From assembly GCA_035546535.1 (NCBI GenBank), contig DASZWQ010000185.1:1-64000 (forward strand): a DNA stretch of 64,000 nucleotides, written 5' to 3'. Below the pieces are notes generated by a model that worked only from the letters and a program-made list of their open reading frames with translations, had not been told where the DNA came from and ran no database searches. The DNA comes from Pirellulales bacterium (lineage in GTDB: Bacteria; Planctomycetota; Planctomycetia; Pirellulales; JACPPG01). A program made the position numbers and the translations under genes. Shown piece by piece: positions 8,302 to 37,212 of the stretch; positions within the stretch are counted from its first letter, which is position 1, and the number at the start of each line of letters is the position of its first letter.

Positions 8302-8757
8302 ATGAATCAACGCGACATCGCTCAACAGACCCTGCTCGAACAGAATCTTTTGACCAACATCACCCAGGCCATTCGCACGACGATCGCTTGGGAGCCGCGC
8401 GGTACCGACCTGGGCGGCAAGCTGCGCAGCTTGCGGTTCATCACGGCCTCGCTGGAAAGACATCTCGACCACCTGATGGACCTGGAAGAGTACGACGGCT
8501 ACATGTCGGCGGCGCAAGAGTCGAGCCCGAACCTGGCCGAGAAGATCACCGCGCTGCGTGATGAGCACGAGCACTTCCGTGACGGCGTACACCGCCTGGT
8601 CGCCAAGCTGGACCGCATCGACAACGACGATCGGACCGGCCTGGAAAAAGTGTGTGTCGAGGTGGGCGATCTGCTCAGCCGCATCGACGAGCACACCCGT
8701 CGCGAGGCCGACCTCTTGCAGGAGGCCTTCCTGCGCGACGAGGGGGGCGAGGGCTAA
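8302..8757 (+). CDS. Hemerythrin-like (HHE) protein
   Basis: A 151-residue, mostly helical, soluble protein. Metal-ligand spacing of the HHE hemerythrin fold is visible: a histidine pair in LERHLDHLMDLEEYDGY, a DEHEHFRDGVHRLV helix, and DEHTRREADLLQEAF at the C-terminus. Such domains bind a di-iron centre and serve in oxygen, NO or iron sensing and storage. I chose the ATG at 8302, with AAGAAGGT upstream; an earlier in-frame ATG at 8188 would add a Ser/Gly-rich leader without structure. No partner gene is adjacent, since the next gene is almost 300 bases away. Binding of iron rather than another metal is inferred from the family. Confidence 0.75.
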   Translation: MNQRDIAQQTLLEQNLLTNITQAIRTTIAWEPRGTDLGGKLRSLRFITASLERHLDHLMDLEEYDGYMSAAQESSPNLAEKITALRDEHEHFRDGVHRLVAKLDRIDNDDRTGLEKVCVEVGDLLSRIDEHTRREADLLQEAFLRDEGGEG

Positions 8758-9045
8758 CCGCCGCCGCTCCTGCGAACCGGACAATTTGGCAGGCACAGCC
8801 TAGCTCGGGCATGTTCCCCTCCAGGAGAGGTCGGACGCCGGCCGATGAACCGGTTAGCCAGACGCTAGCCGGGCCGGAGCGCAAACCGCTCGTTTTTCGC
8901 TGCGCGCCACGTAGACTCGGCCGACACGCTTTGGCTACAATTCGTCCTAGCGGGGGTTATCGTTTCCCACCAGGGTGCCTGCCTCCCTCGAAAGCCCCAC
9001 CGCTCGCTGGCGCAACCATCCACCGGCACGATCAGGAGCGTTACG

Positions 9046-15717: not shown

Positions 15718-18700
15718 TCACTCGCGGGTCATAAACTCGTCAAGGTTCAATAGCGCGCGGGAAACCGTGGTCCAGGCCGCGAGCAAGCGCGGATTGCGAA
15801 AGGCCGGCACCGGTTGGCCGGTCGATTCTGCGTCAGCCGGCGCCGCATCACTGGCCAACTCGTCGGCCAATAGCTCCGCGAGGCACGCACGCTCTTCACC
15901 GTCCGGCTCGCGCGCTAGCGCCAGGCGAAACGCATAGCGGATACGCTCGGCGGTCGGCTGGTCCTTGCACACCGCCAGCACGCGCGTCGCCATCGCCTGG
16001 GCCGCTTCGTAGCAGGTGTCGTCGTTCAATAGCGTCAGCGCCTGCAGCGGCGTATTGGCGCGCTCGCGCCGCGTGCAACTGGTGATGCCGTCCGGCGCGT
16101 CGAGCACCTTGAGGAACGGATTGGGCGTCGAACGCCAATAGTACGTGTACATGCCGCGGCGATAGGCATCCTCGCCGGGGCTGACGTTCCAGGGGCGCGG
16201 GCTGCGCGTCAGCGCCATCACGCCGTCGGGCTGGCGCGGAAAAACGCTCGGCCCGCCAACCTTGTACGACAGCAATCCGCTCGAAGCCAGCATGCAGTCG
16301 CGCACGATCTCGGCCTCGACCCTCAAGCGCGACTGCCGGGCGAGCAACCGGTTATCCGGATCGATCACGCCCAGTTCCGGCCGCGTGTGCGACGACTGCC
16401 GGTACGTGCCCGAGGTGACGATCAGCCGGTGCATCGCCTTCAGGCTCCAGCCGCGAGCCATGAATTCGGCCGCCAGCCAATCGAGCAGTTCGGGATGTGT
16501 CGGCGCCGCGCCTTGCACGCCGAAATCGTTCGACGTTTCAACGATTCCCCGCCCGAAGAACTGTTGCCACATGCGATTCACGGTCACCCGCGCCGTCAGC
16601 GGATTGGCCGGGTCGACCAACCAGCGGGCGAGGTCGACGCGCGAAGGATTCTTCACCTCGGCGGGCAGCGGCGGCAGCACGCTCGGCACGTCGGGCGACA
16701 CGACGGGGCCGTTGCGCAAATACTCGCCGCGCACCAGGATGTGCGTCTCGCGCGGCTGCGAGCGTTCGTGCATGACAAGCGTCGTGGGAACCGTGGTCGA
16801 GAACTTATCGAGCCGGGCCCGGCTTTGCGCCAGCTTTTTCGTCAGTGCTTGCCGCGCTGGATCGGTTTTTTCGTATTCGGCCAGCAGCGTTTCTTGCTGA
16901 GCAGGAGTCCGCTTGTCGGCCGGCACGGCCAGCGCGGCGCGAACCGGCTCGGGCAAAGCCAGCACGTCGCGCGCCGCCTCGGTCACCGCCAGGCGGAAAC
17001 GCCCCAGCAGCATGTGCGGCTTCGCGTGTTGCTGGGCCAGCGAAACCACCATCTTCCGGCCGGCTACCTGGCAATCGTCGCGCGCCACGAGCACGGCCGT
17101 GCGATTCAAGTGCGGCGAAGTATCGACCACGAAGATCGACCAGCCGGTCTTGTCATTGCCGTCGATCAAGTGCGAGGCGGGAAACTTCTCTTGCGCGTAA
17201 TCAGCCGTCGCCAGTTGCCACGCCACGCGCTCGAACGTCGCGTCGCCACCACCGACGGGTTGCGCGGCCAGATCGAGCGTTATCTCGCTCAACACGAAAT
17301 TGCCGTTGTCGGCACGCCCTGGCCCACGCCGCGGCAGGCTGTCGTCGACCAGGGCTTCGAGGCGCAATCCGCGAACCGTCTCGACCGGCGCCGCCGCGGT
17401 CACCGTATACGTGTCGGTCGCGGCCCGTCCGCCGCCGGGCAAAACCGACTGATCTTCGAGCCGCGTAAACGTCGTCCCGGTGGCCGAGGCCACTTCGGTA
17501 GGTTCGACGACATGCCACCTGATGTCCAGCCGCCCAGCGTACTGCTTTTCCCACGCCGCACGCTTGTCGGCGCTCGCTACGTCGTATGCCGCCAGCTCAT
17601 CTTTGGCCGCGGTTATCTGCGCGTTCAACCTGGCCAGTTCGACAGCCTGGGCTTCGTCCGGCACCGGTAAAATCGGCTCGTCGGCGCCATTGAGCAGCGC
17701 GAAGAACTGGTAGAAATCGCGTTGCGATACGGGATCGTACTTATGGTCGTGGCAACGGGCACAGCCGAGCGACAGCCCGAGGAACACCGTGCCGGTCGTG
17801 GCCACGCGATCGACCACCGATTCGATGCGGAACTCCTCGGGGTCGGTGCCCCCTTCTTCATTCTGCAGCGTGTTGCGGTGAAAGCCGGTGGCGATCTGCT
17901 GGTCGATCGTGGCGTCGGGAAGCATATCGCCGGCGAACTGCTCGATCGTGAACCGATCGAACGGCATGTCGGCGTTCAAGGCGTTGATCACCCAATCGCG
18001 ATACTTCCAGATCGTGCGCGGGTTGTCGTTCGTGTAGCCGTTGCTGTCGGCGTAACGAGCCAGGTCAAGCCAGTGACGCGCCTGCCGCTCGCCATAATGC
18101 GGCGAAGCGAGCATCCGGTCGACCAAGCGCTCGTAAGCCCCTTCGCTCTGGTCGGCTAGAAATGCGTCGATGTCGTCGACCTTGGGCGGGATGCCCAGGA
18201 GGTCCAAGCTCAGGCGGCGGATTAACGTCACGCGGTCGGCTTCGGGCGAGGGATGAATGCCATCCCGCGCGAGCCGGCCAAGAATGAACGCGTCGATCGG
18301 GTTTCTGACGAATGTGGCGTCCGCCGCGTCGGCCACCGGCGGCTCGGGATGCGCGACCGGCTGAAACGACCAGTGATCGCTTTTGCGCCGACCCGATGAG
18401 GGAAGCGGCTGATCGTCGGCCGGCGCGGGGGCGCCTGCGTCGATCCAGCGGCGGATCGTGGCGATTTGCTCGGCCGATAGCCGCGGCCCCGCGTCGTCGG
18501 GGGGCATGGACGAGACGTCGTCGGCGCCCGTGATCGCTTTGACGAGCGCGCTCTCGGCGCTTTTGCCCCGCACGATCGCAGCGCCGCTATTTCCCCCTTC
18601 GACGGCCAGCGACACCGCATCGAGCCGCAGTCCCGACTTTTGTTCGTCCGGACCATGACATTTGAAGCAGTGGGCCGCCAGGATCGGCCGCACGTCGCGC

Positions 18701-18804
18701 GTGTAATCGACCGCATCGTCAGCCCTACCATTGCGCGCGGCGCCAGCCACGAGCAGGCCCAGGGCCAGCCACCAGGGTCGAACGGCGAGGGAGAACCGCG
18801 TCAT
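15718..18804 (-). CDS. Planctomycete cytochrome domain (PSD1) + DUF1549 + DUF1553 exported protein
   Basis: A 1028-residue protein. A signal peptide ([20 protein letters not shown]) is followed by a cytochrome-like domain with one CXXCH heme motif (CFKCH, Cys46-His50) and [21 protein letters not shown], then [11 protein letters not shown]. DUF1549 (about residues 165-375) has [35 protein letters not shown] and [18 protein letters not shown], which contains a second CXXCH. A variable middle section of beta-rich sequence precedes DUF1553 (about residues 720-985) with [21 protein letters not shown] and the late [17 protein letters not shown]. It forms a pair with the DUF1501 gene downstream. The family is thought to act in envelope redox or polymer handling, but no reaction is proven. 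Confidence 0.94.
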   Translation of the reverse strand: [1028 protein letters not shown]

Positions 18805-20957: not shown

Positions 20958-21190
20958 GCCCGATTCGTCCCCCGATTGACGGGGAGAATTGGCGTGCGTT
21001 TCCGACGAAGTGTGCTTTTTCCGCAGCCACGGAAGCCCACGATTGCTCGATTCGGGCAGGCGATATCTTGCATCAACGCATAAAGGCGCGTTGAAAAATC
21101 ATTGCAATGCCCTTCCGGGAATGCGATAATCCGGACACCTGCTACCTACCCGCCTTCGTCCCGCCCCAAACTGCTCACGGAAGGAGCCTT

Positions 21191-23746
21191 ATGACTCCCG
21201 CGACCGTGTTTTCTCACGCTGTGTTTTCTCACGCTGCGTTCTCCCGCGTGGTGATTTCCCGCTTGGCATTGGTTGCCGTAATGGTTGGGCTCTGGTCGCC
21301 CGTTGGCCGTGGTGAAGAGGTCGCCACCGCCGCCTCGGCAAAGCCCTCGGTGCCCGCGGCCTCGGCAGCCGGCCTGGGCCCCGCCACGGAACTGACCTTC
21401 AGCACCGGCAACAACCTGTTGCTGCGCGGGCGCGATGCGCAGCGGCAACTGGCGCTCACGGCCAAATACGCCGGCGGCCAATCTCGGGATGTGAGTCGGC
21501 AGGTGACTTACACGACTGTCCCGGCCGGCATCGTCCAGGTTGATAGCACGGGCCTGGCCACACCGCTGGCCGACGGCCAGGCGAAGATCATCGCCCAGGC
21601 CGGCGGCGTACAGGCCACGGCCGATGTGACCGTTGACCATTTCGTCGACGATCCGCAAATCAACTTCCCCAACCAGATCGTGCCGATCTTCACCAAGCTC
21701 GGCTGCAATAGCGGCGGCTGCCACGGCAAGGCCAGCGGTCAGAACGGCTTCAAGCTGTCGTTGCTCGGTTTCGAGCCGGGCGAGGATTACGAACACCTGG
21801 TGATGGAGGCCCGCGGCCGGCGGCTATTCCCGGCGGCGCCCGATCGCAGCCTGCTGTTGACCAAGCCGATCAACGCCATCCCGCACGGCGGCGGCCAGCG
21901 GCTCGATCATGATTCACTCGAGTACCGGCTGCTGAAGCGGTGGATTTCGCAAGGCATGCCGTATGGCAAGGACACCGATCCCAAGGTGGCCAGCATCGAG
22001 GTGCTGCCGGCTCACGCCGTGATGACGCGCAGTGGCGAGCAGCAGATCGCCGTGCTGGCGCACTACACCGACGGGACGATCGAGGACGTGACCCGCCTGG
22101 CGCAGTTCGACCCGAATGACGGCGAAATGGCCGAGGTTTCGGCCCAAGGCCTGGTCAAAACGCTCGACCTGACGGGCGACGTCGCGATCATGGCCCGCTA
22201 TCAAGGGCACGTGGGCGTGTTCCGCGCCAATATTCCGCTGGGGGCGAGCGTCGATGGATTGCCGCCGGCGAAGAACCTTGTCGACGATGCCGTCTTCGCC
22301 AAGCTGAAGACGTTGGGTGTGCCTCCATCGCCGGTCTGCGACGATGCCACGTTCTTGCGCCGCGTCTCGGTCGATATCGCGGGCCGATTGCCGACCTTGG
22401 ACGAAGCCCGGGCCTTCCTCGCCGATCCGGATCCGGCCAAGCGCGACCGGGCAATCGATCGGCTGCTGGATAGCGCCGAATACGCCGACTACTTCGCCAA
22501 CAAATGGACGGCCGTGCTGCGGAATCGCCGCCAGAACCCCAACTACATGCGGGGCACCTACGCCTTCCACGATTGGATTCGCGAAAGCTTGTACACGAAC
22601 AAACCCTACGACCAGTTCGTGCGCGACATCCTGACCGCCTCGGGCGACGTGGGCGAGAACCCGCCCGTGGCCTGGTATCGCGAGGTGAAGGACACCAACC
22701 AGCAGGTCGAAGACGCCGCGCAGTTGTTCCTGGGCCTGCGCATTCAATGTGCCCGTTGCCACCACCATCCGTTCGAGGCTTGGAGCCAGCGCGATTATTA
22801 CGGCTTCTCCGCGTTCTTCGCACAGGTGGCGCGCAAGCCGGGTGATGCGCCCGACGAGTTCCGCATTTACAGCAAGCGGGGGCTGGCACGGGCCACGAAC
22901 CCGAAGACGAACGAAAGCCTGGCGCCGACCGGTCTGGGTGCGAAGCCGAGCGAGGTCTCGGCCGAGCGCGATCCGCGCGAGGCACTCGTGGATTGGATGG
23001 CCGATCCGCAAAATCCGTTCTTCGCCCGTTCACTCGTGAACCGCTATTGGAAGCACTTCTTCAGCCGCGGCATCGTCGATCCCGAGGACGATATGCGCGT
23101 GACGAACCCTGCTTCGAACCCGGCGCTCTTGGATGCGCTGGCGAGCCATTTCGTCAGTTCCCGTTTCGACCTGAAGGAACTGGTGCGCACGATCTGCCGC
23201 TCGAATGTTTATCAATTGAGTGCGCTGCCGAACGACTACAACCTGAACGACAAGCAGAACTTTTCACGCTACTATCCCAAGCGGCTCACGGCCGAGGTTT
23301 TGCTCGATGCCCTGGATGGCGTGACCGCGGCCCCCAGCAGCTTTGCCGGGCTGCCAGCGGGCACGAAGGCGGTGCAGATCCCGGACACGGGCGTGAACTC
23401 GTACTTCCTCACCGTGTTCGGCAAGCCCGAGGCCGCCAGCGCCTGCGAATGCGAGCGGTCGCAAGAGGCCAACCTGGCGCAGAGCCTGCACCTGCTCAAC
23501 TCGAGCGAGGTGCAAGGCAAACTGGCCAGCGGCACGGGCCGGGCCGCGCGGCTGGCCGCCGACACCTCGCGCGGCGACGAGGACAAGGTGCGCGAGCTGT
23601 ACCTGTGCGTCTACGCCCGCGAGCCGGCTTCCGACGAGTTGGCGATCGCCACGGGCCACATCGCCAAGAACGAGAACAAGCAGCAAGCCTACGAAGACAT
23701 CCTCTGGGCCCTCGTGAATACGAAGGAGTTCCTGTTCAACCACTAG
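21191..23746 (+). CDS. DUF1549/DUF1553 exported protein with Big-like domain and CX4CH motif
   Basis: An 851-residue exported protein. A strong GGAAGGAG ribosome site precedes the ATG at 21191. A 15-base direct repeat at the start encodes a repeated VFSHA segment before the signal peptide. Next is a bacterial-Ig-like domain (about residues 70-155), then a cytochrome-like segment with LGCNSGGCHGKASGQNG near residue 171, where the heme-type motif is CX4CH rather than CXXCH. DUF1549 follows (about residues 365-560, with CARCHHHPFEAWSQRDYY) and DUF1553 (about 595-840, with VNRYWKHFFSRGIVDPEDDMR). It is first in a same-strand set with the PPC and WD40 proteins, but no DUF1501 partner is adjacent. 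Confidence 0.93.
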   Translation: MTPATVFSHAVFSHAAFSRVVISRLALVAVMVGLWSPVGRGEEVATAASAKPSVPAASAAGLGPATELTFSTGNNLLLRGRDAQRQLALTAKYAGGQSRDVSRQVTYTTVPAGIVQVDSTGLATPLADGQAKIIAQAGGVQATADVTVDHFVDDPQINFPNQIVPIFTKLGCNSGGCHGKASGQNGFKLSLLGFEPGEDYEHLVMEARGRRLFPAAPDRSLLLTKPINAIPHGGGQRLDHDSLEYRLLKRWISQGMPYGKDTDPKVASIEVLPAHAVMTRSGEQQIAVLAHYTDGTIEDVTRLAQFDPNDGEMAEVSAQGLVKTLDLTGDVAIMARYQGHVGVFRANIPLGASVDGLPPAKNLVDDAVFAKLKTLGVPPSPVCDDATFLRRVSVDIAGRLPTLDEARAFLADPDPAKRDRAIDRLLDSAEYADYFANKWTAVLRNRRQNPNYMRGTYAFHDWIRESLYTNKPYDQFVRDILTASGDVGENPPVAWYREVKDTNQQVEDAAQLFLGLRIQCARCHHHPFEAWSQRDYYGFSAFFAQVARKPGDAPDEFRIYSKRGLARATNPKTNESLAPTGLGAKPSEVSAERDPREALVDWMADPQNPFFARSLVNRYWKHFFSRGIVDPEDDMRVTNPASNPALLDALASHFVSSRFDLKELVRTICRSNVYQLSALPNDYNLNDKQNFSRYYPKRLTAEVLLDALDGVTAAPSSFAGLPAGTKAVQIPDTGVNSYFLTVFGKPEAASACECERSQEANLAQSLHLLNSSEVQGKLASGTGRAARLAADTSRGDEDKVRELYLCVYAREPASDELAIATGHIAKNENKQQAYEDILWALVNTKEFLFNH

Positions 23747-23785
23747 CAAGCCCGTGATGCCTGACTCTGGGTACGGCGATTCCAG

Positions 23786-23864
23786 CACTAGCCCGAAGCG
23801 CCAGCGAGGGGACTTTGAATTATTCCGAATTCAACCCGTCCCTCGCTGGCGCTTCGGGCTAGTG
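23786..23864. repeat. REP-like element: 25-bp perfect inverted repeat
   Basis: CACTAGCCCGAAGCGCCAGC with five more bases (23786-23810) is matched perfectly by its reverse complement at 23840-23864, with a 29-base spacer. Diverged copies are at 38573-38637 and 39186-39255. The rest of the gap up to the next gene (23865-24173) shows no convincing gene, terminator or promoter. The hairpin could attenuate or stabilise the transcript between the first and second genes of the exported set. Confidence 0.85.
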
Positions 23865-24173
23865 TCGACGGTTGCAGAGTTGTTCGGCAGAATAGTGGAT
23901 TTGCGCGGGTTCTTGAATCAGACTGAAACCATCGCGGGCACCCACCCCTGGCCCGCGATCGAAGTGCTCGTTTCCCCGATCGAGCACGGCTTGGCAATGG
24001 CGAAGCCCGGCACGCCTTGTGTCGGGGTGCTGACTGATGCGGTCGAACGAAGGGACGCCATGGCGGCTTGAAGAGCCGGTGGCGACATCTTTCGATTTCG
24101 GCGAGATGACCTCCCTGCAATTTACCTGCCCCAAAGCGACCTGCCCGATGGGCGGGTCTCGTGCGAGGACTCC

Positions 24174-27100
24174 ATGCCGGAGAATGTTCGAACGTCGTTA
24201 TTCATGATGCGCATGCGGCGCAAGGCTCGCTTGCTCGCGGGCCTGTTCCTTGTGGTCACCTTGGCCGGCTCGTTCGCGCCAACCACCCATGCCCAGTTGC
24301 CGGCCGCGCAATTGCACGCACTGTTTCCCAGCGGCGGCCGACAAGGCACGATCGTCGATGTGAAGCTCGCCGCGGGCGCCGATACCGAGGGGGCCGATCG
24401 CCTGGTCTTTTCGCATCCGCATATCACGGCGGTGCAGAAGACGCGACCGGCCACGCCCTTCGAGCAGGGGCCGCAGCCGGTACCGAACGAATTCACCGTC
24501 GCCATCCACCCCGACGTGCCGCCGGGCATTTACGAAGCGCGGTACGCCGGCCGCTTCGGCGTTTCGAACCCGCGGGCGTTCGTCGTCGGCACCCTGCCCG
24601 AACGCAACGAGCCGGCCGACAATCACGCGCCGGACAAGGCCGCCACGATCCCGACGAACACGATCATCAACGGCACGGCCGACGCCACGAGCAACGATTA
24701 TTTCAAAATCGCCTTGAAAAAAGACGAGCAAATCGTCATCGACGTGTGGGCCGAGCGCCTTGATTCGCGCATGGATGCCACGCTCGCCATTTACGATGCT
24801 ACGGGCCGGGAACTGGCCAACGATCGCGACACGAACCGCCGCGATCCGCTGTTGGCGTTCACGGCACCCGCCGACGGCGAATACACGATCCGCCTGTTCG
24901 ATTTCTTGTACCGCGGCGGCGCCGACTACTTTTACCGACTGGTTGCCTCGACCGAGCCCTATATCGATTTCGTTCTGCCGCCGGTCGCCGTGCCTGGCAC
25001 CAAAAGTTCGTTCACGCTGTACGGGAGCCATTTGCCGGGCGGGACCAAGGTCGAAGGGCTCTCGTCACGCGGCCGCCCGCTGGAGAAGGTCACGGTCGAG
25101 ATCGAGGTGCCCGCCGGCCGCGCCGTGGAAGAATTAACGATCAGTAACTTGTCGCGCGCACAGGACGCCAACTTCGATGGTTTCGAATACCGGCTCGTGA
25201 CGCCTTCGGGCAGCTCGAACCCGTGCCTGATCGGTTTCACTTCGGCGCCGGTCGTCATGGAACAGGAGCCGAATAACGATCCCAACCAACCGCAGCAGAT
25301 CAGCGTGCCCGCGACGTACATCGGCCAGTTTGCGCCGCGCGGCGATTACGATTGGGTATCGTTCGACGCCAAAAAAGGGGACGCGTACTGGATCGAAACC
25401 GTTTCGCAGCGGTTGGGTCTGCCGACCGACCCGTATCTGCTCATTCAGCGAGTCAGCCGTAACGACAAGGGCGAGGTGCAAGTCACCGACGTCCAGGAGT
25501 TGGACGACTCGGCAAAGGGCGCCGGCATCACGACGTTCAAGCCGGACAGCGACGATCCGATTTATCGATTCGCCGCGCCCGAAGATGGCACGTATCGAAT
25601 TCTGATTCGCGATTTGTACGCCGGCTCGCGCGGCGATCCGCGCCTGGCTTATGCACTTGCGATTCGCACGGCGGCGCCCGATTTCCGCCTGGTCGCTGTG
25701 CCGGCCCATCACGCCAATTTGACGGCGCCGGCCGATTCGCAGCCGGTGAACCCGCTCTTGCGGCGCGGCGGCACGGAAATGATCAACATCGTGGCCCTGC
25801 GGCGCGATAGCTTCGACGGCGAGATTTCGCTTTCGGTCGAAGGACTGCCGCCGGGCGTGATTGCCAGCCAAACCATTATTCCCGCGGGTCAGAATTCCAC
25901 GACCTTGGTACTACGCGCCGGCGACGAGCAGCCCGCCTGGCTGGGCCCGATTCGCATCGTGGGAAAGGCCGCGATCGATGGCAAGGAAGTCGCGCGGACG
26001 GCGCGCGGGGCCTCGACGCAATGGCCCACGGCCGTGAACACGTCGCCCGACTCGCGCCTGAGCCGGGACCTGTGGCTTTCGGTGATCGATCGCGACGTCT
26101 CTCCGGTGTTGGTGGAGCTTGGTGAAAGCAAAACGTGGGAGATGTCGCGGGCCGGCAAGCTCGAAATCCCCATCAAGGTCACCCGTCGCGGCGACATGAA
26201 GCAGCCCGTCACGCTCACCGCGATCGGCCTGCCGGGCAACGTCAAGGCGGCGCCGGTCACGGTTGCGCCCGAGGCGAACGAAGGCAAGCTGGTGCTCGAG
26301 ATCGCCGAGAAGGCGGCTCCGGTCTTGCAGAACTTGCGATTGCAGGTGCAGGCCAGCGTTTCGTATCGCCGCAATCCGGAAGCGGCCGATGCGGCGGCCG
26401 CGGCGCAAAAGGAAATCGATCGGCTGGCCGGCGAACTGACCGCCGTGTCGCAAGCGGCCGAGCAGGCGCGGCAGGCGGCCGAAAAAACGGCCGCTGATTC
26501 CGCCGCCGCCGCGAAGCAGGCGACCGAACTCGCCATGGCCGAAGGGCAAAAGCTCAACGCTGCCACCGAAGCGGCCAAGGCCGCGGTGACGAAGGCCGCG
26601 GCAGCCGGCGAGGCCGTCAACAAAGATTCGACGAATCAGGACCTTGTGCAGGCCAAAGAGGCGGCAGACAAGGCTGCTGCTGACGCCAACGCGCAGTTGC
26701 AAGCTGCCACCGCGGCCAATGAATCGGCGCAGAAAGCCGCCGCCGCGGCCAACGCCAGGTCCCAGGCCGCCGCGGCCGACAAAGCAGCGCGCGATAAGCT
26801 GGCCGCCGACGCCGCGGCGAAAGCCAAGGCCGCCGCCGACGCCAAGGCGGCCGCCGACAAACGAGCCGCCGACCTGGCCAAGGCCGCCGAGGCCAAGAAT
26901 GTGAACATCTTCGAGACCTCGACGTCCACGCTCATTCGCATCACGAATGCTCCGCTGACACTGGCCGTGACGCCCCCCGCTGCGCCTATTAAGCCTGGTG
27001 CAACTGTCGAGATACCTGTCACGGCGGGGCGTTTGTATGGCTTCGCCGAAGCGCTCGAAGTCGAATTGATCGTCCCGGAAGCGGCCAAGGGACTGTCAGC

Positions 27101-27272
27101 GGCGAAAGTCGCGATCCCCGGCGACAAGGCCGAGGGCAAGTTCTCGCTCGTCGCGGCGGCCGATGCCGCGCCCGGCAAGCACGCACTCGTCGCGCGCACG
27201 AAATTCAAATTCGGCGGCGCGGATTTCCAAATCGACGCGCCGGTCGCGGTGGAAGTCGAAGCCGCGAAATGA
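24174..27272 (+). CDS. Exported PPC-domain protein with long alanine-rich coiled coil
   Basis: A 1032-residue protein. After a signal peptide (about residues 15-42, ARLLAGLFLVVTLAGSFAP), two pre-peptidase C-terminal (PPC) beta domains are visible: one at about residues 148-265 (DYFKIALKKDEQIVIDVWAE, DGEYTIRLFDF) and one at about 362-500 (EQEPNNDPNQPQQI, GDYDWVSFDAKKGDAYWIET). Further beta domains lead to an alanine/lysine coiled coil at about residues 737-908, then a final beta domain (LAVTPPAAPIKPGATVEIPV). PPC domains usually sit in secreted enzymes, but no catalytic domain is visible here. Its stop overlaps the next start by ATGA, so translation is probably coupled to the WD40 gene. Confidence 0.88.
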   Translation: MPENVRTSLFMMRMRRKARLLAGLFLVVTLAGSFAPTTHAQLPAAQLHALFPSGGRQGTIVDVKLAAGADTEGADRLVFSHPHITAVQKTRPATPFEQGPQPVPNEFTVAIHPDVPPGIYEARYAGRFGVSNPRAFVVGTLPERNEPADNHAPDKAATIPTNTIINGTADATSNDYFKIALKKDEQIVIDVWAERLDSRMDATLAIYDATGRELANDRDTNRRDPLLAFTAPADGEYTIRLFDFLYRGGADYFYRLVASTEPYIDFVLPPVAVPGTKSSFTLYGSHLPGGTKVEGLSSRGRPLEKVTVEIEVPAGRAVEELTISNLSRAQDANFDGFEYRLVTPSGSSNPCLIGFTSAPVVMEQEPNNDPNQPQQISVPATYIGQFAPRGDYDWVSFDAKKGDAYWIETVSQRLGLPTDPYLLIQRVSRNDKGEVQVTDVQELDDSAKGAGITTFKPDSDDPIYRFAAPEDGTYRILIRDLYAGSRGDPRLAYALAIRTAAPDFRLVAVPAHHANLTAPADSQPVNPLLRRGGTEMINIVALRRDSFDGEISLSVEGLPPGVIASQTIIPAGQNSTTLVLRAGDEQPAWLGPIRIVGKAAIDGKEVARTARGASTQWPTAVNTSPDSRLSRDLWLSVIDRDVSPVLVELGESKTWEMSRAGKLEIPIKVTRRGDMKQPVTLTAIGLPGNVKAAPVTVAPEANEGKLVLEIAEKAAPVLQNLRLQVQASVSYRRNPEAADAAAAAQKEIDRLAGELTAVSQAAEQARQAAEKTAADSAAAAKQATELAMAEGQKLNAATEAAKAAVTKAAAAGEAVNKDSTNQDLVQAKEAADKAAADANAQLQAATAANESAQKAAAAANARSQAAAADKAARDKLAADAAAKAKAAADAKAAADKRAADLAKAAEAKNVNIFETSTSTLIRITNAPLTLAVTPPAAPIKPGATVEIPVTAGRLYGFAEALEVELIVPEAAKGLSAAKVAIPGDKAEGKFSLVAAADAAPGKHALVARTKFKFGGADFQIDAPVAVEVEAAK

Positions 27273-30200
27273 CACCGTCATCAACGATTTCAAGATATCA
27301 CTCGGTGAAGAGTATGAGTCTAAGCAGCCTGCGATTCGTGCTGGTCTTTGTAATCATCGCCGTCAGCGGCGCGGTGCGCGACGTTCGCGCCGACGACGCT
27401 CCGCAAACGATCGCCATCGCCGAGATCAAGCGCGACGCACCGGTCGATTTCGCCAAGGAAGTGCAGCCCCTGTTCAAGAAGCACTGCGTGGCGTGCCACA
27501 ATTCGACCACGCACGAAGGGGGCCTGAATCTCGAAAGCCCTCAGTCGATGCTCAAAGGAGGCGATAGCGGTCCGGCCCTCGTGGCGAGTAAAGCCGCGGA
27601 AAGCCTGCTGTTGGAGCGCGCCACAGGTAAAACCGAACCGCTGATGCCGCCGCCGGGCAACAAGGCCAATGCCCAGCCTTTCACAAGCGAAGAGTTGGGC
27701 CTCGTCAAGCTGTGGATCGATCAAGGCGCCACCGGCACGGCTTCGACGGCGGAAACGATCGAGTGGCAGCCGCTTCCCAGCGGCGTCAACCCGATCTATG
27801 CCGTGGCGATCACCCCCGATGGGCAGTACGCCGCCTGCGGTCGCGCGAACCAGATCTTCCTTTATCACGCACCGACCGGCCGCCTGGTGGGCCGGCTGAC
27901 CGATCCTGAATTGCTGAAGGCTGGCATTTATCAAAAGCCGGGCGTAGCCGATCTCGACATCGTGCAATCGCTTGCCGTCAGCCCCGACGGAAACACCCTG
28001 GCCTCGGGCGGCTATCGCACCATCAAGTTGTGGAGCCGGCCACGCAATGTCCGGCCCTTTACGCTGGAAGCCGTCGCGCCGGAATCGGTCAACGCTGTTG
28101 CCGTCAGCCCCGATGGCAAGCTGCTGGCCACCGGCGGCAATGACGGGCAAGTGAAATTGTGGGACGCTGCGGCCGGCGCACCGGCACGCGCGATCATGGC
28201 GCACACGGCGCCGGTAACGGGCCTGGTGTTCTCGCCGGACAACAGTCGGCTCTACACCAGTTCGCACGACAAGACGATTCGCGCCTGGCAAGTGGCCGAC
28301 GGCGCGGCGCTGGGCGGTATCAACACGCCTGCCGCGGTGAACGCGCTTGCGCTTGCGACCGAGGGAGCTCAATTGGCCGCCGGCGGTGCCGACCATTTGA
28401 TCCGCGTGTGGGATGTCGGCACGGCGACGGGCCAGCAGGTTGCCGAGGCCCCACCGATCGCGACGCTCGCCGGACACGAGCAACCGCTTACTTCGCTAGC
28501 CAGCGTGCCGGGCATGCCGGCGCGCATTCTTTCGGGAAGCGCCGACGGTTCGGCGCGATTGTGGAACCTGGCCGACGGCAAGGTGCTGCACAAGCTCGAT
28601 CATGGTAGCGCCGTGACGGCCGTGGCCGTGCGACCTGATGGGACCCGTTTCGCGACGGCTGGCGCTGGCGGCGTGGCCAAGCTGTGGAACGCCGCGGACG
28701 GAAAGATGCTTGCCGAGATGCGTGGCGACGTGGGCTCGCAATTGCAGGTGGCCGCTGTCGAGCGCGCGATCGCCGGCCGGCAGCGCGACGTCGCCTACCT
28801 GACGGCCGCGGTCGGTACGGCCGAAAAAGCCGCGACTTCGGAAGCCGAAGGCGTGAAGAAAAGCATGGAAGCCGTAACCGCGGCGGAAAAAGCGCTCGGC
28901 GAGAAGACCGAAGCCGCCAAGAAGGCTGAAGAAGAGAAGGTCGCCGCCGACAAAGCCTCGACCGAAGCCGTGGCGGCGGCAAAAGCCGCCGAAGAGGCCA
29001 AGGCCGGATCCGACAAAGTGATTGCCGACGCCGAAGCCGCGGCCAAATCGATCATGGAAATGGCCGTGCAGGCAAAAGCCGCCGCCGACGCGGCCCCGCA
29101 GAATAAATTCCTGGCCGACGCCAAGGCCGCCGGCGAAAAAGCAACCGCCGAAGCCACGGCGAAGATCGCCAGCGCCAAGGAAGCAAAAGTTGCGAACGAA
29201 AAGGCTGTCGCCGAATCGCCTGCCAAGGTAAAAGCCGCCGCGGACGCACTGGCCACCAAAGTGAAAGCCGCCACAGATGCCGAGGCCGCGCGGAAGCAGG
29301 CCGAAACGTCGAAGACGGCCGCCGAGCAGGCGGTTGTCGCCGCCAACGCCGCGGCCAAGCGCGCAGCCGACGCTGTCCCGCTCGCGAAGAACGCACAGGC
29401 GGCGGGCGAAGCGGCCCTCAAGCAGGCGCAGACCGAACTGGAAACCGCCAGGCAAGCGGCCACGGCCACCGAGCAGCCAATCCGCGCGATTGCCTTTGCA
29501 CCTGACAATCAGCAGCTGGCCACCGGCGGCGACGATCGCAAGGTTCACTTGTGGAGTGCCGAAACCGGCGTGCCCTTTGAAACCTATGCCGGTCATGCGG
29601 CGCCGATTCTCAGCGTGGCCTTTGTCGGCGACGGACGCCTGGTGTCAGGTGCCGCAGACAAAATGGCGGCCGCCTGGGAATTGCATCCGGCCTGGACCTG
29701 GCAGCGTACGATCGGCGGGCCAGACAGCCCGCTTCTGGCCGACCGGGTTACCGCGCTCGACTTCAGTCCCGACAGCAAGTTGCTAGCAAGCGGCAGCGGT
29801 GAACCGTCGCGCAGCGGCGAGTTGAAGATCTGGAACGTGGCCGACGGGACGCTGGCACGCGACATCCCCGAAGCCCACAGCGACTCGATCTTCGGCGTGG
29901 ATTTTGCGCCCGACGGTAAGTACCTGGCTTCCTGCGGGGCCGACAAGTTCGTCAAGGTCTTTGACCTGTCGACCGGCAAGCTGGCCAAGTCGTTCGAAGG
30001 GCATACCCATCACGTGCTGTCAGTCGCCTGGCAGGCCCAGGGGCGCACGTTGGCCAGCGGAGGCGCGGACAACGTGATCAAGGTCTGGAACTTCGAGACT
30101 GGCGAACAGCAACGGACGATCGCCGGCTTTGCCAAGGAGGTGACCGCGGTCGCCTTCATTGGTCCGGGCGACGAAGCCATCTCGTGCGCCGGCGACAAGC

Positions 30201-30391
30201 TGGTTCGCATGTACCAGGTCGACAACGGGAAGAAGGTCCGCGACTTCGGCGGCGGCTCAGACTATATGTATGCCGCCGCCATCACGCCCGACGGCAAGTT
30301 CCTCGTGGCCGGCGGTCAGGATAGCGTGCTGCGGGCCTGGAATGCGGCGGACGCCAAGAGCATCTACACGCTTGACGCGAAACAGCCGTAA
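27269..30391 (+). CDS. Exported cytochrome-domain protein with two WD40 propellers joined by a coiled coil
   Basis: A 1040-residue protein. The N-terminal signal segment is followed by a planctomycete cytochrome-like domain with CXXCH (KKHCVACHN, near residue 74) and LMPPPGNK. I count seven WD40-type repeats at about residues 165-485, then an alanine/lysine/glutamate coiled coil at about 487-733, then seven more repeats to the C-terminus. Each repeat shows the pattern of an SPDGK-LATGG turn and a closing KLWD or similar. This suggests two complete seven-bladed propellers. The first ATG (27269) overlaps the previous stop; the ATG at 27314, with GGTGAAGAG upstream, is an alternative that starts at a better signal peptide. 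Propellers usually bind partners, and heme suggests redox. Confidence 0.9.
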   Translation: MTPSSTISRYHSVKSMSLSSLRFVLVFVIIAVSGAVRDVRADDAPQTIAIAEIKRDAPVDFAKEVQPLFKKHCVACHNSTTHEGGLNLESPQSMLKGGDSGPALVASKAAESLLLERATGKTEPLMPPPGNKANAQPFTSEELGLVKLWIDQGATGTASTAETIEWQPLPSGVNPIYAVAITPDGQYAACGRANQIFLYHAPTGRLVGRLTDPELLKAGIYQKPGVADLDIVQSLAVSPDGNTLASGGYRTIKLWSRPRNVRPFTLEAVAPESVNAVAVSPDGKLLATGGNDGQVKLWDAAAGAPARAIMAHTAPVTGLVFSPDNSRLYTSSHDKTIRAWQVADGAALGGINTPAAVNALALATEGAQLAAGGADHLIRVWDVGTATGQQVAEAPPIATLAGHEQPLTSLASVPGMPARILSGSADGSARLWNLADGKVLHKLDHGSAVTAVAVRPDGTRFATAGAGGVAKLWNAADGKMLAEMRGDVGSQLQVAAVERAIAGRQRDVAYLTAAVGTAEKAATSEAEGVKKSMEAVTAAEKALGEKTEAAKKAEEEKVAADKASTEAVAAAKAAEEAKAGSDKVIADAEAAAKSIMEMAVQAKAAADAAPQNKFLADAKAAGEKATAEATAKIASAKEAKVANEKAVAESPAKVKAAADALATKVKAATDAEAARKQAETSKTAAEQAVVAANAAAKRAADAVPLAKNAQAAGEAALKQAQTELETARQAATATEQPIRAIAFAPDNQQLATGGDDRKVHLWSAETGVPFETYAGHAAPILSVAFVGDGRLVSGAADKMAAAWELHPAWTWQRTIGGPDSPLLADRVTALDFSPDSKLLASGSGEPSRSGELKIWNVADGTLARDIPEAHSDSIFGVDFAPDGKYLASCGADKFVKVFDLSTGKLAKSFEGHTHHVLSVAWQAQGRTLASGGADNVIKVWNFETGEQQRTIAGFAKEVTAVAFIGPGDEAISCAGDKLVRMYQVDNGKKVRDFGGGSDYMYAAAITPDGKFLVAGGQDSVLRAWNAADAKSIYTLDAKQP

Positions 30392-30625: not shown

Positions 30626-30727
30626 TTTCTTACTCAACTGACGCGATAGGCACCGCCGATACTACCGGCACGAACGCCTACAGCGGAGTTCTCCGTTGTA
30701 CGAGTGCGCGGAACGGTCGTGGACCTT

Positions 30728-32209
30728 ATGTGGATTCCGACGATGTCGATCAGCCGCTTCAAAGCATCACTGCTAGCACTGGCCCTGCAGATGCTGTTGG
30801 TATCGTTGGCACTGGGCATCGAGCCCGGTGTCGACCCTTACCCCAACGTGCATCCGCCGGTGCCTCAACAGCCGAGTGGACCTCCGCAGCCGGCGCGTGA
30901 CCGGCCGGGACCTGGGCCGACGGTCGGGGATGAGCCGCCCAGCGGTATTGATGCTTCGGGGCCCGAGTTTGTCAACATCGCGGACATGGAGGTATTCGCG
31001 CCGGCCGACATCAGCACCTATGGAGCGGGAATTGCACCGAACACCGGGTGGTGGCTTTCGTGGGATTATCTGCGCTATACCGTGACCGCACCGCATCGCA
31101 CCTTGATTGGCAACCCGGATATTGCCACCGGCTACTCGACGGGGTCGTCGGTTTTCTACGGTGCCACGCCCGGCATCTCCTCCGACCGCACGACGGGAGG
31201 CAGCATTGCCGGACCGCAATTGGCCCCCATGGACACCGGCTGGATCGGCCAAGGCCCTTCGAACGGCTACCGTTGGGAGGGCGGCTGGATGGACCAGGAC
31301 CACGGCTTCCTGCTCAGCGCTTTCAAGTTGTACGATAACGACCAGAACGCCTTCGCGAACAATGTGGGTGTACCGTTTTACGCTCCTCCACAGGGCCCCT
31401 TGGGCATCTCGCTGTTGCAAGGCTTTGTGGATCCCAACGGCACCGGGCATGACGCGGACCTGAACGGCAACGGCATTTTCGGCCGCTATGGAGCGAACCC
31501 GGTGAGCGGTGCCGTACCGTCCAACGCCGGAGCCCCGGATTTCGGCGACTTGGCGACTTTGCCCGTCAACTTCACCTCGTTGATTGCTTACGACCATCGG
31601 GCCCTGTGGGGTGCAGAGGCCGACTACGTGTGGCGTCTGCGGCCGGCCTTTCACCCGGTGACCTGGGAAGTGTTGGCCGGTGCGCGCTACTTCCGCTTCG
31701 ACGAGAGCTTCGCAGTGATCGGCCAGGGCGGCGTGCTGGATTCGAGCTTCTGGAATACCCGTTCGATCAATAACATGGGTGGTGGCCAGATCGGCTTGCG
31801 ATTTGCCCACAAGCGCAACCGCCTGATGTTCACGAGCGAAGGTCGCTTTGCCGCTTTGGCGAACTGGCAAAACAACCTGCAGCAAGGCGAAATCGCCTCG
31901 AACACGGTGGCCGGCGGCGTGTCGACGGTGCAGGGCCGGTCGCTGAATCTGGTCCCCACCGGCTGGAACACGGCCGTGCAGAAGACCGAGTTCTCGCCCT
32001 TGGGTGAATTGCGGTTCAACCTGCAATACCAGGTCTTCAACAAGGCCTCGGTCAATGTCGGCTGGACCGGCATCATCGTGGGCAGCGTCGCCCGGCCGGC
32101 GGACATGATCAACTACCAGTTGCCGAACATGGGCATCCTGGTGCATGGGAACAACAAGCAGACCGTGTTCATGCAAGGCTTGACGCTGGGCTTCATCTTC
32201 AACCGGTAG
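30728..32209 (+). CDS. BBP7 family outer-membrane beta-barrel protein
   Basis: A 493-residue exported protein. A signal peptide (SRFKASLLALALQMLLVSLA) is followed by a proline-rich segment (about residues 40-85), then the barrel domain that starts with WWLSWDYLRYTV, a hallmark of the planctomycete BBP7 family. Repeated aromatic-ended strands follow, for example ALWGAEADYVWRLRP, WEVLAGARYFRFDESF and IGLRFAHKRNRLMFTSEGRFAAL, and the final strand ends in MQGLTLGFIFNR with the usual terminal aromatic residue. The protein likely forms an outer-membrane pore or adhesin barrel. The start at 30728 is preferred; ATG 30743 or GTG 30704 are possible. Its own promoter must lie in the 30392-30727 gap. Confidence 0.88.
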   Translation: MWIPTMSISRFKASLLALALQMLLVSLALGIEPGVDPYPNVHPPVPQQPSGPPQPARDRPGPGPTVGDEPPSGIDASGPEFVNIADMEVFAPADISTYGAGIAPNTGWWLSWDYLRYTVTAPHRTLIGNPDIATGYSTGSSVFYGATPGISSDRTTGGSIAGPQLAPMDTGWIGQGPSNGYRWEGGWMDQDHGFLLSAFKLYDNDQNAFANNVGVPFYAPPQGPLGISLLQGFVDPNGTGHDADLNGNGIFGRYGANPVSGAVPSNAGAPDFGDLATLPVNFTSLIAYDHRALWGAEADYVWRLRPAFHPVTWEVLAGARYFRFDESFAVIGQGGVLDSSFWNTRSINNMGGGQIGLRFAHKRNRLMFTSEGRFAALANWQNNLQQGEIASNTVAGGVSTVQGRSLNLVPTGWNTAVQKTEFSPLGELRFNLQYQVFNKASVNVGWTGIIVGSVARPADMINYQLPNMGILVHGNNKQTVFMQGLTLGFIFNR

Positions 32210-32897: not shown

Positions 32898-35800
32898 TCA
32901 CACGGCGAACGACGACGCGTTCTCGATGCGTTCTTCCCGCGGCGCGGTCGGCTGCTGACCGACGTATGCGGGATCGAGTTTCATCAATTCCTCGGCCAGC
33001 ACCTGCACGGTATAGCGAATCTGCTCCTCCGTATGGTTCGAGGTGATGAAGAACCGCAAGCGGGCTGCCTTTTCCTCGACCGCCGGATGAAGGATCGGCT
33101 GCACGTTGACGCCGCGCCGGGCCATCGCCTGGGAAGCCTCGAGGCAGTGCAGCGAGTTACCCAGGATCACCGGCACGACCGGTGAATCCTTGCTGTTGCC
33201 GGTATTCATCTTCCACGACTTGGCCAGGTTGAGGAACAACTGCGAGCGCTCGCGCAGACGGGCTACGCGTTCGGGCTCGTCTTCCAATAACTGAATGGCC
33301 GCGAGAGCCGCTGCCGCATTGCTGGGCGGAATGCCCACGCTGAAAACAAAACCGGGGGCCGTGTACTTCAAGTACTGGATCAGCGCCTGGCTGCCGGCGA
33401 TGTAACCACCACAACTGCCGAACGCTTTGCTGACCGTACCCATCCACAGGTCGACATCCGACGGATGGACGTCGAAATGCTCACCAATGCCGCGTCCGCG
33501 CCGTCCCAGCACGCCCACGGAGTGGGCTTCGTCGATCATGAGGAACGCCTTGTGCCGCTTCTTCACCTCGATCAAGCGCGGCAGGTCCGGGATGTCGCCG
33601 TCCATGCTGTACACGCCCTCGGTGGCGATCAGCACACGGCGGTAGTCGCCACGATGTTCTTCCAACAGCCGATCGACGGCGCGCCAGTCGTTGTGCGGGA
33701 ACGGCCTTCGGCGCGCTCCCGATAGGATCGATCCCTGGACGATGCTGTTGTGAGCCAACGCGTCGTGCAGGATCAAGTCACCGGGACCGAACAGGTGGCC
33801 AATGATCGTCTCATTGGTCCCATGACCGCTCACGAGCACGATGGCATCCTCGCTGCCGATCAGATCGGCGATGGCCAACTCGAGATCGCGATGGATCACT
33901 TTGTTGCCCGACACCAGTCGGCTGGCCGAGACCGACGTTCCGTAACGATCGATCGCGTCCTTGGCCGCCTTGGCGACCGTCGGATCGCCCGACATGCCAA
34001 TGTAATTGAAGCTCGAAAAATTGATCAGCTCGCGTCCGCCGATCACGGTCGTGTCGGTGGCGACTTGCTCGTGCAGGTGGAAGAACGGATTCGCCAGCCC
34101 GGACTCGTTCAACATGTCCAGGCTCTGCTTGAGCTGGGCGATTTCGGGGAACTTGTCGAAGTTGTAGTTCTCGGCAGGAATCTCGCTCGTCTCGAGATGC
34201 TGCGCCTTCTTCTGGCCGCTGCCCAGGTAGCTTTCGACCGCCTCGAGAACTTGCCGGCAGGTTTCCAGCTCGGGCATGACATCCTCGGGGAAGCGTCCGC
34301 CGAATCGCTCTTCGAGCGAGGCGAGGATTTCCATGCGTTCGAGCGAATCGAGTCCCATATCCGCGATGGTCGAATCGAGCGTCAGGTTCCCGGCGCGATC
34401 CTTGGCAATGCGGCGCACTTCGTCGAGAACGACACTCTCTTTTTCCGCTTTGGAGATCGCCGAAGAATGACCGTTGCCGGCCCCATTACCGTTTGTCCCG
34501 TTGCCGCCAGCGCCGTTTCCGCTTGTGCCGTTTCCGCTTGTGCCATTGCCACCTGTGGCACTTTGAGCCCCGCCACGCGCGGCGGGGCTGGCGGCCGATC
34601 GGGGCAACTCATTGCCCGCGCCGGCGCCTTGGCGATTGTCGTTGTCATGCGTGGTGGAGTGGCGGCGCTGCTTGAGCGTCGCCCGGCCGCTGTGCCGGCT
34701 CGTCAAAAGCAGATTCGGTTCCACGATCGTCTCGTCACGCGACTGCGAATCCCAGCGTGCCACGGCGTCGAGCTCGTCGGTCAAGAATGCCGCCCGGCAA
34801 GCATGACGCTGAATCTTGCCGCTCGAGGTCTTGGGAATCGCTCCCGACTTCAACAACACGATCGAATCGGCCATAAGCTCGTGCTCGCGCGAGATCTCGC
34901 GACGAATGGCCTCGATAATGGCGTCGGCCTGGGACCGCGCACTCCGCTCGACTTCGGCCACGATGATCAACCGCGTCACTTCGTCGTCGTCGGTCGTGAC
35001 CGCCGCCACGCAACTGGGGCGAACCGCGGCGTGTGCCTTTTCGACGGTCAGCTCGATATCGTGCGGATAGTGATTCAGCCCGCGAATGATGATCAGGTCT
35101 TTCAAACGGCCGGTGATGAACAATTCGCCGCGATCGAGAAAGCCGAGGTCACCGGTGCGCAGGAACGGTCCCTCGCCGGTGTCGGCGAGCTGGGCGCGGA
35201 AGACGTGCCCGGTCTCTTCGGGACGATTCCAATATCCTTGGGCGACGCTGCCCCCTTTCACCCATACCTCGCCGATCGTGCCGTCGGCACAGGTACGAAT
35301 CGTTTCAGGATCGACGATGGCGATTTGCTGGCCGATCGCGTTTTCGCCGGAGCCGACCAGGCGGCGACCTGCGCCACCGCCGGGCATGGCATGCCCTGTC
35401 TCGAGGTGATCGGGCAGATAATCGCGGACGACGGGCGCGGCATCTTTGTAGCCGCCCGTAACGATCAACGTGGCCTCGGCCAAACCGTAGCAAGGGTAGA
35501 AGGCCTCGCGCCGGAAACCGCACGGCTCGAACGCTTCACAAAAGCGATCGATCGTTTCGGCACGCACCGGCTCGGCGCCGTTAAACGCCAGCGTCCACTG
35601 GCTGAGGTCCAGTTCGGCGCGCTGTTCAGGCGTGGTTTTACGCACGCACAAATCGTAGGCGAAATTCGGTCCGCCGCTGATCGTGGCCCGATACTTCGAG
35701 ATCGCTTGCAGCCAGCGAATGGGCCGCTGCAAAAAGGCAACCGGCGACATCAATACGTTCGGCCGGGCGATGAACATGGGCTGCAAAATGCCGCCGATCA

Positions 35801-36476
35801 GCCCCATGTCGTGATAACTGGGCAACCAGAACACGCCACGGCCGGTGCGCTGGCTCTGCTCGAACAAATGCTTGATGACCCCCGAATTGTGGACCAGGTT
35901 GCCGTGCGTCAGCATGACGCCCTTGGGCCGGCCGGTCGAACCCGAGGTGTATTGCAGAAAGGCGAGCGTGCCGGTGCCGATGTCGGGGTATTCCCAATTC
36001 GCTTCGATGCCGGCGTGCGATTGATCGGTAGCGCGCCAGCGCACTCGCAACAAGTCGCGGCTCGCGCCCAGCAACGGTTGCACGCGCTCGAGCACGGCGC
36101 CTGTCGTCAATGCGACGCGGGCATCACAATCGGCCGCAATGGCCTGAATGCGCCCCAGCGAACGATTCATGCGGGGCGGGTACGCCGGCACGGCCACCAC
36201 GCCCGCGTACAGGCAGCCAAAAAAGGCCGCAATGAACTCCAATCCGGGCGGGTACAAGAGCAAGGCACGCTGACCCTGCAAGCCGTACGCTTGCAACCAG
36301 GCGGCGATTCCCCGTGCCTGCCGATCCAACTCGGCGTAAGTCATCGAGATTTCTTCGTTTTCGCCGTCCACCAGATAGGCAAATGCCTGCTCATCCCCTT
36401 TATGAGCGGCCAGGTGCCGGAGCAGATCCACGAGGTTCGGCGGCCCAAAGAACAATCCACGAGTTTGATCAGACAC
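32898..36476 (-). CDS. Fused fatty-acyl-AMP ligase / acyl carrier protein / alpha-oxoamine synthase
   Basis: One polypeptide of 1192 residues with three domains. Residues about 10-590 form a fatty-acyl-AMP ligase: YTSGSTGRPKGVMLTHGN (near 175), WLPSYHDMGLIGG, the FAAL-type FLQRPIRWLQAISKYRAT and PNFAYDLC, then LRTGDLGFLD and GLNHYPHDIE. A glycine/asparagine-rich linker (about 640-670) leads to an acyl carrier protein with MGLDSLERME (Ser near 708). The C-terminal PLP domain (about 800-1170) has HGTNETIIGH, LIATEGVYSMDGD, DEAHSVGVLG and the Schiff-base lysine in VSKAFGSCGG (near 1017), as in serine palmitoyltransferase, BioF and CqsA. The GTG at 36476 has GGGGAG 8 bases upstream; ATG at 36494 is an alternative. 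It should activate a fatty acid, load it on its carrier and condense it with an amino acid. Confidence 0.92.
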   Translation of the reverse strand: MSDQTRGLFFGPPNLVDLLRHLAAHKGDEQAFAYLVDGENEEISMTYAELDRQARGIAAWLQAYGLQGQRALLLYPPGLEFIAAFFGCLYAGVVAVPAYPPRMNRSLGRIQAIAADCDARVALTTGAVLERVQPLLGASRDLLRVRWRATDQSHAGIEANWEYPDIGTGTLAFLQYTSGSTGRPKGVMLTHGNLVHNSGVIKHLFEQSQRTGRGVFWLPSYHDMGLIGGILQPMFIARPNVLMSPVAFLQRPIRWLQAISKYRATISGGPNFAYDLCVRKTTPEQRAELDLSQWTLAFNGAEPVRAETIDRFCEAFEPCGFRREAFYPCYGLAEATLIVTGGYKDAAPVVRDYLPDHLETGHAMPGGGAGRRLVGSGENAIGQQIAIVDPETIRTCADGTIGEVWVKGGSVAQGYWNRPEETGHVFRAQLADTGEGPFLRTGDLGFLDRGELFITGRLKDLIIIRGLNHYPHDIELTVEKAHAAVRPSCVAAVTTDDDEVTRLIIVAEVERSARSQADAIIEAIRREISREHELMADSIVLLKSGAIPKTSSGKIQRHACRAAFLTDELDAVARWDSQSRDETIVEPNLLLTSRHSGRATLKQRRHSTTHDNDNRQGAGAGNELPRSAASPAARGGAQSATGGNGTSGNGTSGNGAGGNGTNGNGAGNGHSSAISKAEKESVVLDEVRRIAKDRAGNLTLDSTIADMGLDSLERMEILASLEERFGGRFPEDVMPELETCRQVLEAVESYLGSGQKKAQHLETSEIPAENYNFDKFPEIAQLKQSLDMLNESGLANPFFHLHEQVATDTTVIGGRELINFSSFNYIGMSGDPTVAKAAKDAIDRYGTSVSASRLVSGNKVIHRDLELAIADLIGSEDAIVLVSGHGTNETIIGHLFGPGDLILHDALAHNSIVQGSILSGARRRPFPHNDWRAVDRLLEEHRGDYRRVLIATEGVYSMDGDIPDLPRLIEVKKRHKAFLMIDEAHSVGVLGRRGRGIGEHFDVHPSDVDLWMGTVSKAFGSCGGYIAGSQALIQYLKYTAPGFVFSVGIPPSNAAAALAAIQLLEDEPERVARLRERSQLFLNLAKSWKMNTGNSKDSPVVPVILGNSLHCLEASQAMARRGVNVQPILHPAVEEKAARLRFFITSNHTEEQIRYTVQVLAEELMKLDPAYVGQQPTAPREERIENASSFAV

Positions 36477-37212
36477 TGATTGGACTCCCCGCATTACAAT
36501 AGGCAGATTGCGTCAACACGACGGCGGAAAACCCCGCGAGGGATTGGTAGCGCGCTCACTCGTCGCCCGCATCGGCCAGCGATCACGGCCAAAGCCGGCT
36601 GGCTCTACCACGATCGTTGGTCGGCCCGCGCAGACGGGCACGTACTCTCTATCCATGAAAGTGGGCGGATTATGGGTGAGGGGACGCCGTTCGGCAGCGA
36701 TGCAGGTAGGAATAACGCCAAGAAGTATCCGTTCTTAGCAATCGCTCCGAACCCTAGCTAGCGACCGCTTCGCGATTGCTCGACAGATCCCGCGATCCGC
36801 GAGCCCCATCGCAAAATTCAACTAGCTAACCGTCAGAAAAAGAGTACCACGTTGGGGATGGGTATTCAAACAACTTTCCCCCAGCAAGCACGCCTAAACC
36901 CAAGCGCTGCACGGCCAACTCGGAAAATGAAGACCTCACCGAATGGCGTGCAGACTCTTCGAGGCGATAATACTTCATCAGATCAGCTTATTTTACGTAT
37001 CTTGACAAAAGCCCGCGTGGGGGATCAGGCCACCAGAAAGCACCAATTCCGCCCCGCGCCGCACGGCCAATCCAAGGAGTCTGGCGAACGTATATCTTTC
37101 ACAGTTCGGGGGAACGGCATCGCGATCGAATCATTACAAGGGGCCCCGGAAGTTCGAAGTCTGGTTGCTCAAAGCCCACAGGCCGTTTCGTAACCATGAT
37201 CCAAGGAAACAA
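36477..37212. other. About 730 bases without a convincing gene
   Basis: This divergent gap should contain the minus-strand promoter of the fused enzyme and the plus-strand promoter of the PQQ-type gene. Base composition is lower in GC than the flanks. Two plus-strand frames (36480-36761 and 36852-37193) have no family-like sequence, poor starts and amino-acid use unlike neighbours, so I do not call them. A 9-bp inverted repeat (AGCAATCGC at 36737, GCGATTGCT at 36772) and a TTGACA at 37002 without a good -10 are the only signals noted. Confidence 0.5.

Follow-up and report, generated by a model that had tools for sequence, protein, structure and literature searches.

A conserved three-gene set with export signals and heme motifs in Planctomycetota and Verrucomicrobiota, in which two of the proteins carry predicted helical hairpins of one kind

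In a 64,000-nucleotide stretch of a Pirellulales genome (contig DASZWQ010000185.1, hereafter the window), two of three neighboring genes encode proteins with long coiled-coil segments, and the locus raises the question of whether these coils pair with each other into one rigid assembly, as an earlier note had proposed, or form separate structures. The three ORFs, A (21107-23746), B (24174-27272) and C (27269-30391), all lie on the plus strand, and the last two overlap by the ATGA at 27269-27272, so the description of a co-directional set is borne out. N-terminal export signals, judged by eye, are present in A, B, and C; this is in line with the claimed export of all three proteins and suggests a location in the cell envelope. 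The 879-residue product of ORF A is a putatively exported protein with a PSCyt2 (DUF1549) and then a PSD1 (DUF1553) domain, matched in Pfam with 171.9 and 148.1 bits, an Ig-like Big_2 region and heme-like motifs, among which CxxCH-x-HP occurs in 94/94 A orthologs. Position 21191, previously taken as its start, is an in-frame ATG at codon 29 of ORF A, just ahead of the signal peptide. Among solved structures, relatives of ORF A consist of Ig-like and teneurin-like matches to the Big region, with none to PSCyt2 or PSD1.

The contig scans of other genomes used the C profile, the first B profile being too variable. Of the five genomes in the window's genus, four carry a full-length C ortholog; C orthologs are also spread over many families of the order, elsewhere in the class and in assemblies labelled Verrucomicrobiota. 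Considering only loci with enough DNA upstream of C, ORF B adjoins ORF C in 82 of 104, and 67 of 88 show the complete A-B-C arrangement, which upholds the view of a conserved set. In three genomes (G017, G026, and G008) C lies apart from B, yet the coil is retained in both proteins. At locus L039, B and C are joined in a single open frame (4442-9382), a natural fusion whose B part has a 63-residue mini coil and whose C part has none; it suggests that B and C physically associate. Downstream of C in the window lies a gene for a putative beta-barrel porin, BBP7, at 30704-32209 on the plus strand, which is also found after C in the three other genomes of the same genus that have C but not outside it (3/77 other loci).

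The 1040-residue product of ORF C is a putatively exported cytochrome of the c type that also bears 14 WD40 repeats and a helical hairpin, as indicated by Pfam and AlphaFold2. Its PSCyt1 domain (PF07635; 60.4 bits against a cut-off of 22, E 2.6e-16) spans residues 73-130 (27485-27658), with the heme motif CVACH and M126 as the distal residue. C73, C76, H77, and M126 are invariant, and CxxCH with a distal Met-Pro-Pro (MPP) 40-60 residues further on recurs in 135 of 136 C orthologs, which agrees with the assignment of a heme group to the WD40 protein. Pfam, AlphaFold2 and structure comparison place WD40 repeats 1-7 at residues 173-485 (27785-28723) and repeats 8-14 at residues 738-1036 (29480-30376). 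In the AlphaFold2 model, based on 35 aligned sequences, the intervening coil is predicted to form two antiparallel helices of 121 residues each, residues 488-608 (28730-29092) and 613-733 (29105-29467), connected by a four-residue turn (609-612, 29093-29104) that lies within APQNKFL and is also located by the turn profile described below.

The coil had been thought to lie exactly between two sets of seven repeats. This is correct for the order in sequence, where the model has 28 propeller strands (seven repeats) on either side, but not for the predicted fold, in which the two propellers are likely nested and the hairpin emerges from inside one of them; the nesting, like the hairpins themselves, is read from one AlphaFold2 model per protein. 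A complete seven-bladed propeller aligns to residues 260-804 of this model over 282 residues, the hairpin being excluded, and the comparison with 7bie gives a Z of 44.0 and that with 5yzv a Z of 43.1 (rmsd 1.3-1.5 A over 282-283 residues). One propeller is thus likely made of residues from about 259 to 485 together with 738-806, the hairpin arising between its fifth and sixth blades, and the strand counts and best structure match indicate 173-258 plus 807-1036 as the likely composition of the other. Two seven-bladed WD40 propellers per chain are also seen in the twin-propeller proteins AIP1 (1nr0) and 2ymu; however, none of the 50 matches listed covers the whole C model (query-normalised TM at most 0.28). 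In six loci (L054, L056, L057, L065, L122, and L173) C orthologs reach 1330-1660 residues through extra WD40 repeats, and so the number of repeats varies while the hairpin stays.

ORF B encodes a protein of 1032 residues, putatively exported and composed of PPC and Ig-like domains (Pfam, AlphaFold2; PPC match PF04151 with 49.4 bits, cut-off 25.9). The model, made from 31 aligned sequences, again predicts a hairpin, here of two 83-residue antiparallel helices, residues 735-817 (26376-26624, pLDDT about 91) and 822-904 (26637-26885), with a four-residue turn (818-821, 26625-26636) inside KDSTNQDL, a turn motif common to B and C. The hairpin stands where an Ig-like domain would otherwise have a short loop, of about seven residues in hairpin-less orthologs. 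In Foldseek the matches of B are confined to Ig chains of the complement/A2M type and to collagenase PPC domains. The sizes given in the earlier note, some 170 residues for the coil of B and some 245 for that of C, come close to the modelled lengths, although each corresponds to two helices with a central turn and not to a single helix.

Are the two coils then of the same kind? A position profile of the turn was trained on C inserts only and scored by leave-one-out within C. In 56 of the 57 C inserts above threshold the highest score over the whole insert falls at the midpoint, while in B the same C-only profile falls on the exact midpoint in all 27 passing inserts, every one of them perfectly symmetric. 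Because motifs lying near the center served as seeds for the C profile, the symmetry in C is in part built in, which is true neither of the symmetry in B nor of the step size. That a profile from C alone finds the midpoints of B hairpins substantiates the notion of matched coils. The turn of the window's own ORF B scores under the threshold, yet sits at the midpoint (87/87). Arm lengths fall on a ladder: 55 of the 57 passing C inserts have an N-terminal arm of 82, 103, 124, 145, 166, or 187 residues, and 24 of the 27 passing B inserts have arms of 45, 66, 87, or 108, against 52 in the remaining three. Autocorrelation of residue identity at lag 21 gives z values of 18.3 and 17.3 for the arms of C and 9.0 and 24.4 for those of B. 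The spectral peak is at 3.50 residues in B and C alike, not at 3.6, which points to canonical heptad coiled coils and led us to reject single alpha helices. Two equal heptad helices with a short turn, the attributes of an antiparallel hairpin, are thus present both in the predicted structures and in the sequences. The same period, together with the recurrence of the coils at one insertion point in more than 80 adjacent B-C pairs, also argues that they are not a product of chance.

The rule has its bounds. No turn above threshold was found in 60 of 117 C inserts and 50 of 77 B inserts, many of them with lengths off the ladder (in C, e.g., 155, 169, 268, and 299), which limits the 21-residue rule to a large subset. 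Proline and glycine are enriched at the center of the motif-less inserts, which are therefore probably hairpins with other turns. A tree of C that excludes the coil implies 12 length changes; ten of these equal 21 residues per arm or an exact multiple of it, and two, of 4 and 44, depart from the rule. Were changes free to involve any whole number of heptads, the probability of all ten being three-heptad multiples would be about (1/3)^10. The rule holds less well for B, where only three of eight changes are multiples of 21. Even so, six of the eight are multiples of 7, and both proteins display paired whole-heptad length change of the type known from the chemoreceptor classes. Pairwise scoring of the site at which a 21-residue block enters the arms gave best gap positions that scatter. 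When the window's genome was searched with the C coil alone, the coil itself was the sole match, in what is a weak test given such a composition.

If the coils of B and C paired lengthwise, their lengths might be expected to change together, which the earlier note proposed to check. No such covariation is seen: in 48 adjacent pairs the two lengths are uncorrelated (Spearman -0.13), B arms of 87 residues are found alongside C arms from 103 to 166, and some B hairpins have shrunk to some 40 residues with the long hairpin of the C partner retained. As to the presence of coils, on the other hand, B and C agree in 113 of the 118 adjacent pairs, with 90 having both, 23 neither, three only that of C (L065, L066, and L253) and two only that of B, namely L228, with a long coil, and L258, a borderline case of 21 residues. 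The agreement is suggestive. The 23 coil-less pairs form one clade, in which C is often a single-propeller protein of about 475 residues; the concordance therefore reflects mainly one joint event and is not statistical proof. On the tree, the coil of B and that of C each change in presence only three times, too few for significance. In one clade (L224, L229-L239, L255, and L256) a hairpin-less B accompanies a short C of about 470-530 residues, with a cytochrome and a single propeller; in the related L225, L226, L240, and L242-L248 the hairpin-less C is longer, at 750-820 residues, and could represent intermediate stages in which C was being built up or reduced.

How probable, then, is a rigid assembly formed by lengthwise pairing of the two coils? 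Operon linkage, the shared hairpin type, the agreement in presence and the natural fusion speak for it. Nevertheless, each coil closes on itself in its AlphaFold2 model, the lengths vary independently, and the very case that the earlier note named as contradicting its proposal, one coil without the other, exists (C in L065, L066, and L253; B in L228). We hence regard such pairing as improbable, a judgment that does not extend to a variant in which two closed hairpins pack side by side over part of their length; contact between B and C elsewhere, through the tips or the beta domains, is plausible. A little less improbable, though still unlikely, is that the hairpins serve self-association, identical copies packing as four-helix rods that would yield separate homo-oligomers of B and of C. 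Their Ala-rich heptad surfaces could pack tightly and independent lengths fit independent self-assembly, but in the models the heptad core is already satisfied by the two arms of one chain.

In an alternative scenario the hairpin tips would dock on a partner in the outer or inner membrane, as the alpha-hairpins of periplasmic adaptors do. A conserved tip on arms of variable length is what this predicts, and in the window's genus the BBP7 gene following C would offer a candidate beta-barrel; a helix cap, however, could explain the tip motif, BBP7 is downstream in only 3/77 other loci, and no conserved membrane partner was found around the loci examined. Tip docking is accordingly doubtful. By far the poorest account takes the coils for single alpha helices, or for low-complexity spacers without structure, whose length drifts without function: their Ala/Lys/Glu-rich composition and varying length would suit it, and yet the period of 3.50, the midpoint turn with symmetric arms, the paired 21-residue steps in at least ten changes and the confident hairpins of both models leave it hardly any credence.

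We favor, with a degree of confidence somewhat better than even, an explanation in which the coils of B and C are self-contained antiparallel coiled-coil hairpins, not halves of one B:C coiled coil, and A-B-C is an exported heme module, probably of the envelope, with two subunits bearing the same kind of adjustable stalk. The hairpin of B would be a stiff rod of about 130 A projecting from an Ig-like domain, and that of C one of about 180 A rising from within one of the two nested WD40 propellers; with the same turn, heptad period and 21-residue repeat, they would be one kind of module, both arms of which would usually grow or shrink together in evolution, in steps of three heptads (21 residues, about 31 A). 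We infer from their shape, strict construction and conservation that the rods might act as stalks or docking arms that fix how far the cytochrome/propeller platform of C, like the beta chain of B, stands from a third surface; alternatively, they might join copies of the complex via hairpin tips or sides. Redox chemistry would be carried out by A and the cytochrome of C, as their heme motifs and PSCyt family membership suggest. More speculatively, and with little probability in our estimation, the hairpins could be two molecular rulers of the same design, positioning the cytochrome/propeller platform relative to a partner surface in steps of 31 A and meeting at their tips or side by side; if so, rod length would be a selected, species-specific distance setting.

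The families involved are known. PSCyt1/PSCyt2/PSD1 (DUF1549/DUF1553) modules have been described in freshwater Verrucomicrobia, in combination with Big_2 and WD40 domains and often near sulfatase genes; the PSCyt/PSD families, uncharacterised, occur in many copies per genome in Planctomycetota and Verrucomicrobiota (PMC5615132). A-B-C shares domain families with these modules, but consists of three separate ORFs in fixed order, and the available portion of that report describes neither a hairpin-bearing PPC partner nor a hairpin module (PMC5615132). Among the papers listed in searches of the open-access literature, none described the hairpin module or symmetric hairpin steps of three heptads (21 residues), which is weak evidence of novelty; both appear to be undescribed.

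Other long hairpins provide partial parallels. Those of the methyl-accepting chemotaxis proteins (MCPs) lie in the cytoplasm and change in length one heptad per arm at a time. The MCP signalling hairpin (24H/36H/40H classes; PMC4742279, PMC7534058) is antiparallel, with a conserved tip and discrete heptad lengths, as here. In contrast, the hairpins of B and C are putatively exported, Ala-rich and set in propeller or Ig folds, with mostly three-heptad steps per arm, and neither has a match in Pfam or NCBIfam at E up to 1, so they were not assigned to the MCP signalling domain. Periplasmic adaptor (membrane fusion) proteins likewise extend an alpha-hairpin from a beta domain and include hairpin-less variants such as BesA (PMC8277102), but the base domains differ, being WD40, PPC, and Ig-like and not lipoyl/beta-barrel, and no efflux or type 1 secretion genes were seen beside A-B-C; membership of that family was also rejected. 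The receptor-binding hairpin of colicins E2/E3, another long helical hairpin on a larger protein, gave weak profile matches (E 0.5-1.4), no better than those of tropomyosin-type long coils in the same search, and its function and context are different.

A device of such strict build in two of the three proteins of an operon offers an experimental handle, since the hairpins can be cut, swapped, or lengthened. The three-heptad rule also poses a general question on how long antiparallel coiled coils evolve, the puzzle being that both arms shift together by 21 residues although single heptads would also preserve the packing of the core.

Several further genes stand out elsewhere in the window and its genome. 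Upstream of ORF A, on the opposite strand and divergent from it, lies a pair encoding a DUF1501 protein (14150-15598, minus) and a PSCyt1-PSCyt2-PSD1 protein (15718-18804, minus). The minus strand at 32898-36494 encodes a 1198-residue fusion of an AMP-binding enzyme, an acyl-carrier (PP-binding) domain and a class I/II aminotransferase. Further clusters of DUF1501-like, PPC-type and DUF1549/DUF1553-type ORFs occur in the same genome (L219, L220, and L222), and their PPC proteins are distant relatives of B in which the hairpin insert is absent. At about 80.5-88.1 kb of the window's contig, a paralogous cluster (L046, 571-8209) comprises DUF1501, DUF1549/DUF1553 and a fusion protein of 1216 residues. 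In the latter, which has no hairpin, the C-type part (PSCyt1 and WD40 repeats) precedes the B-type part (PPC-like domains); similar fused proteins are present in L042, L043, and L044.
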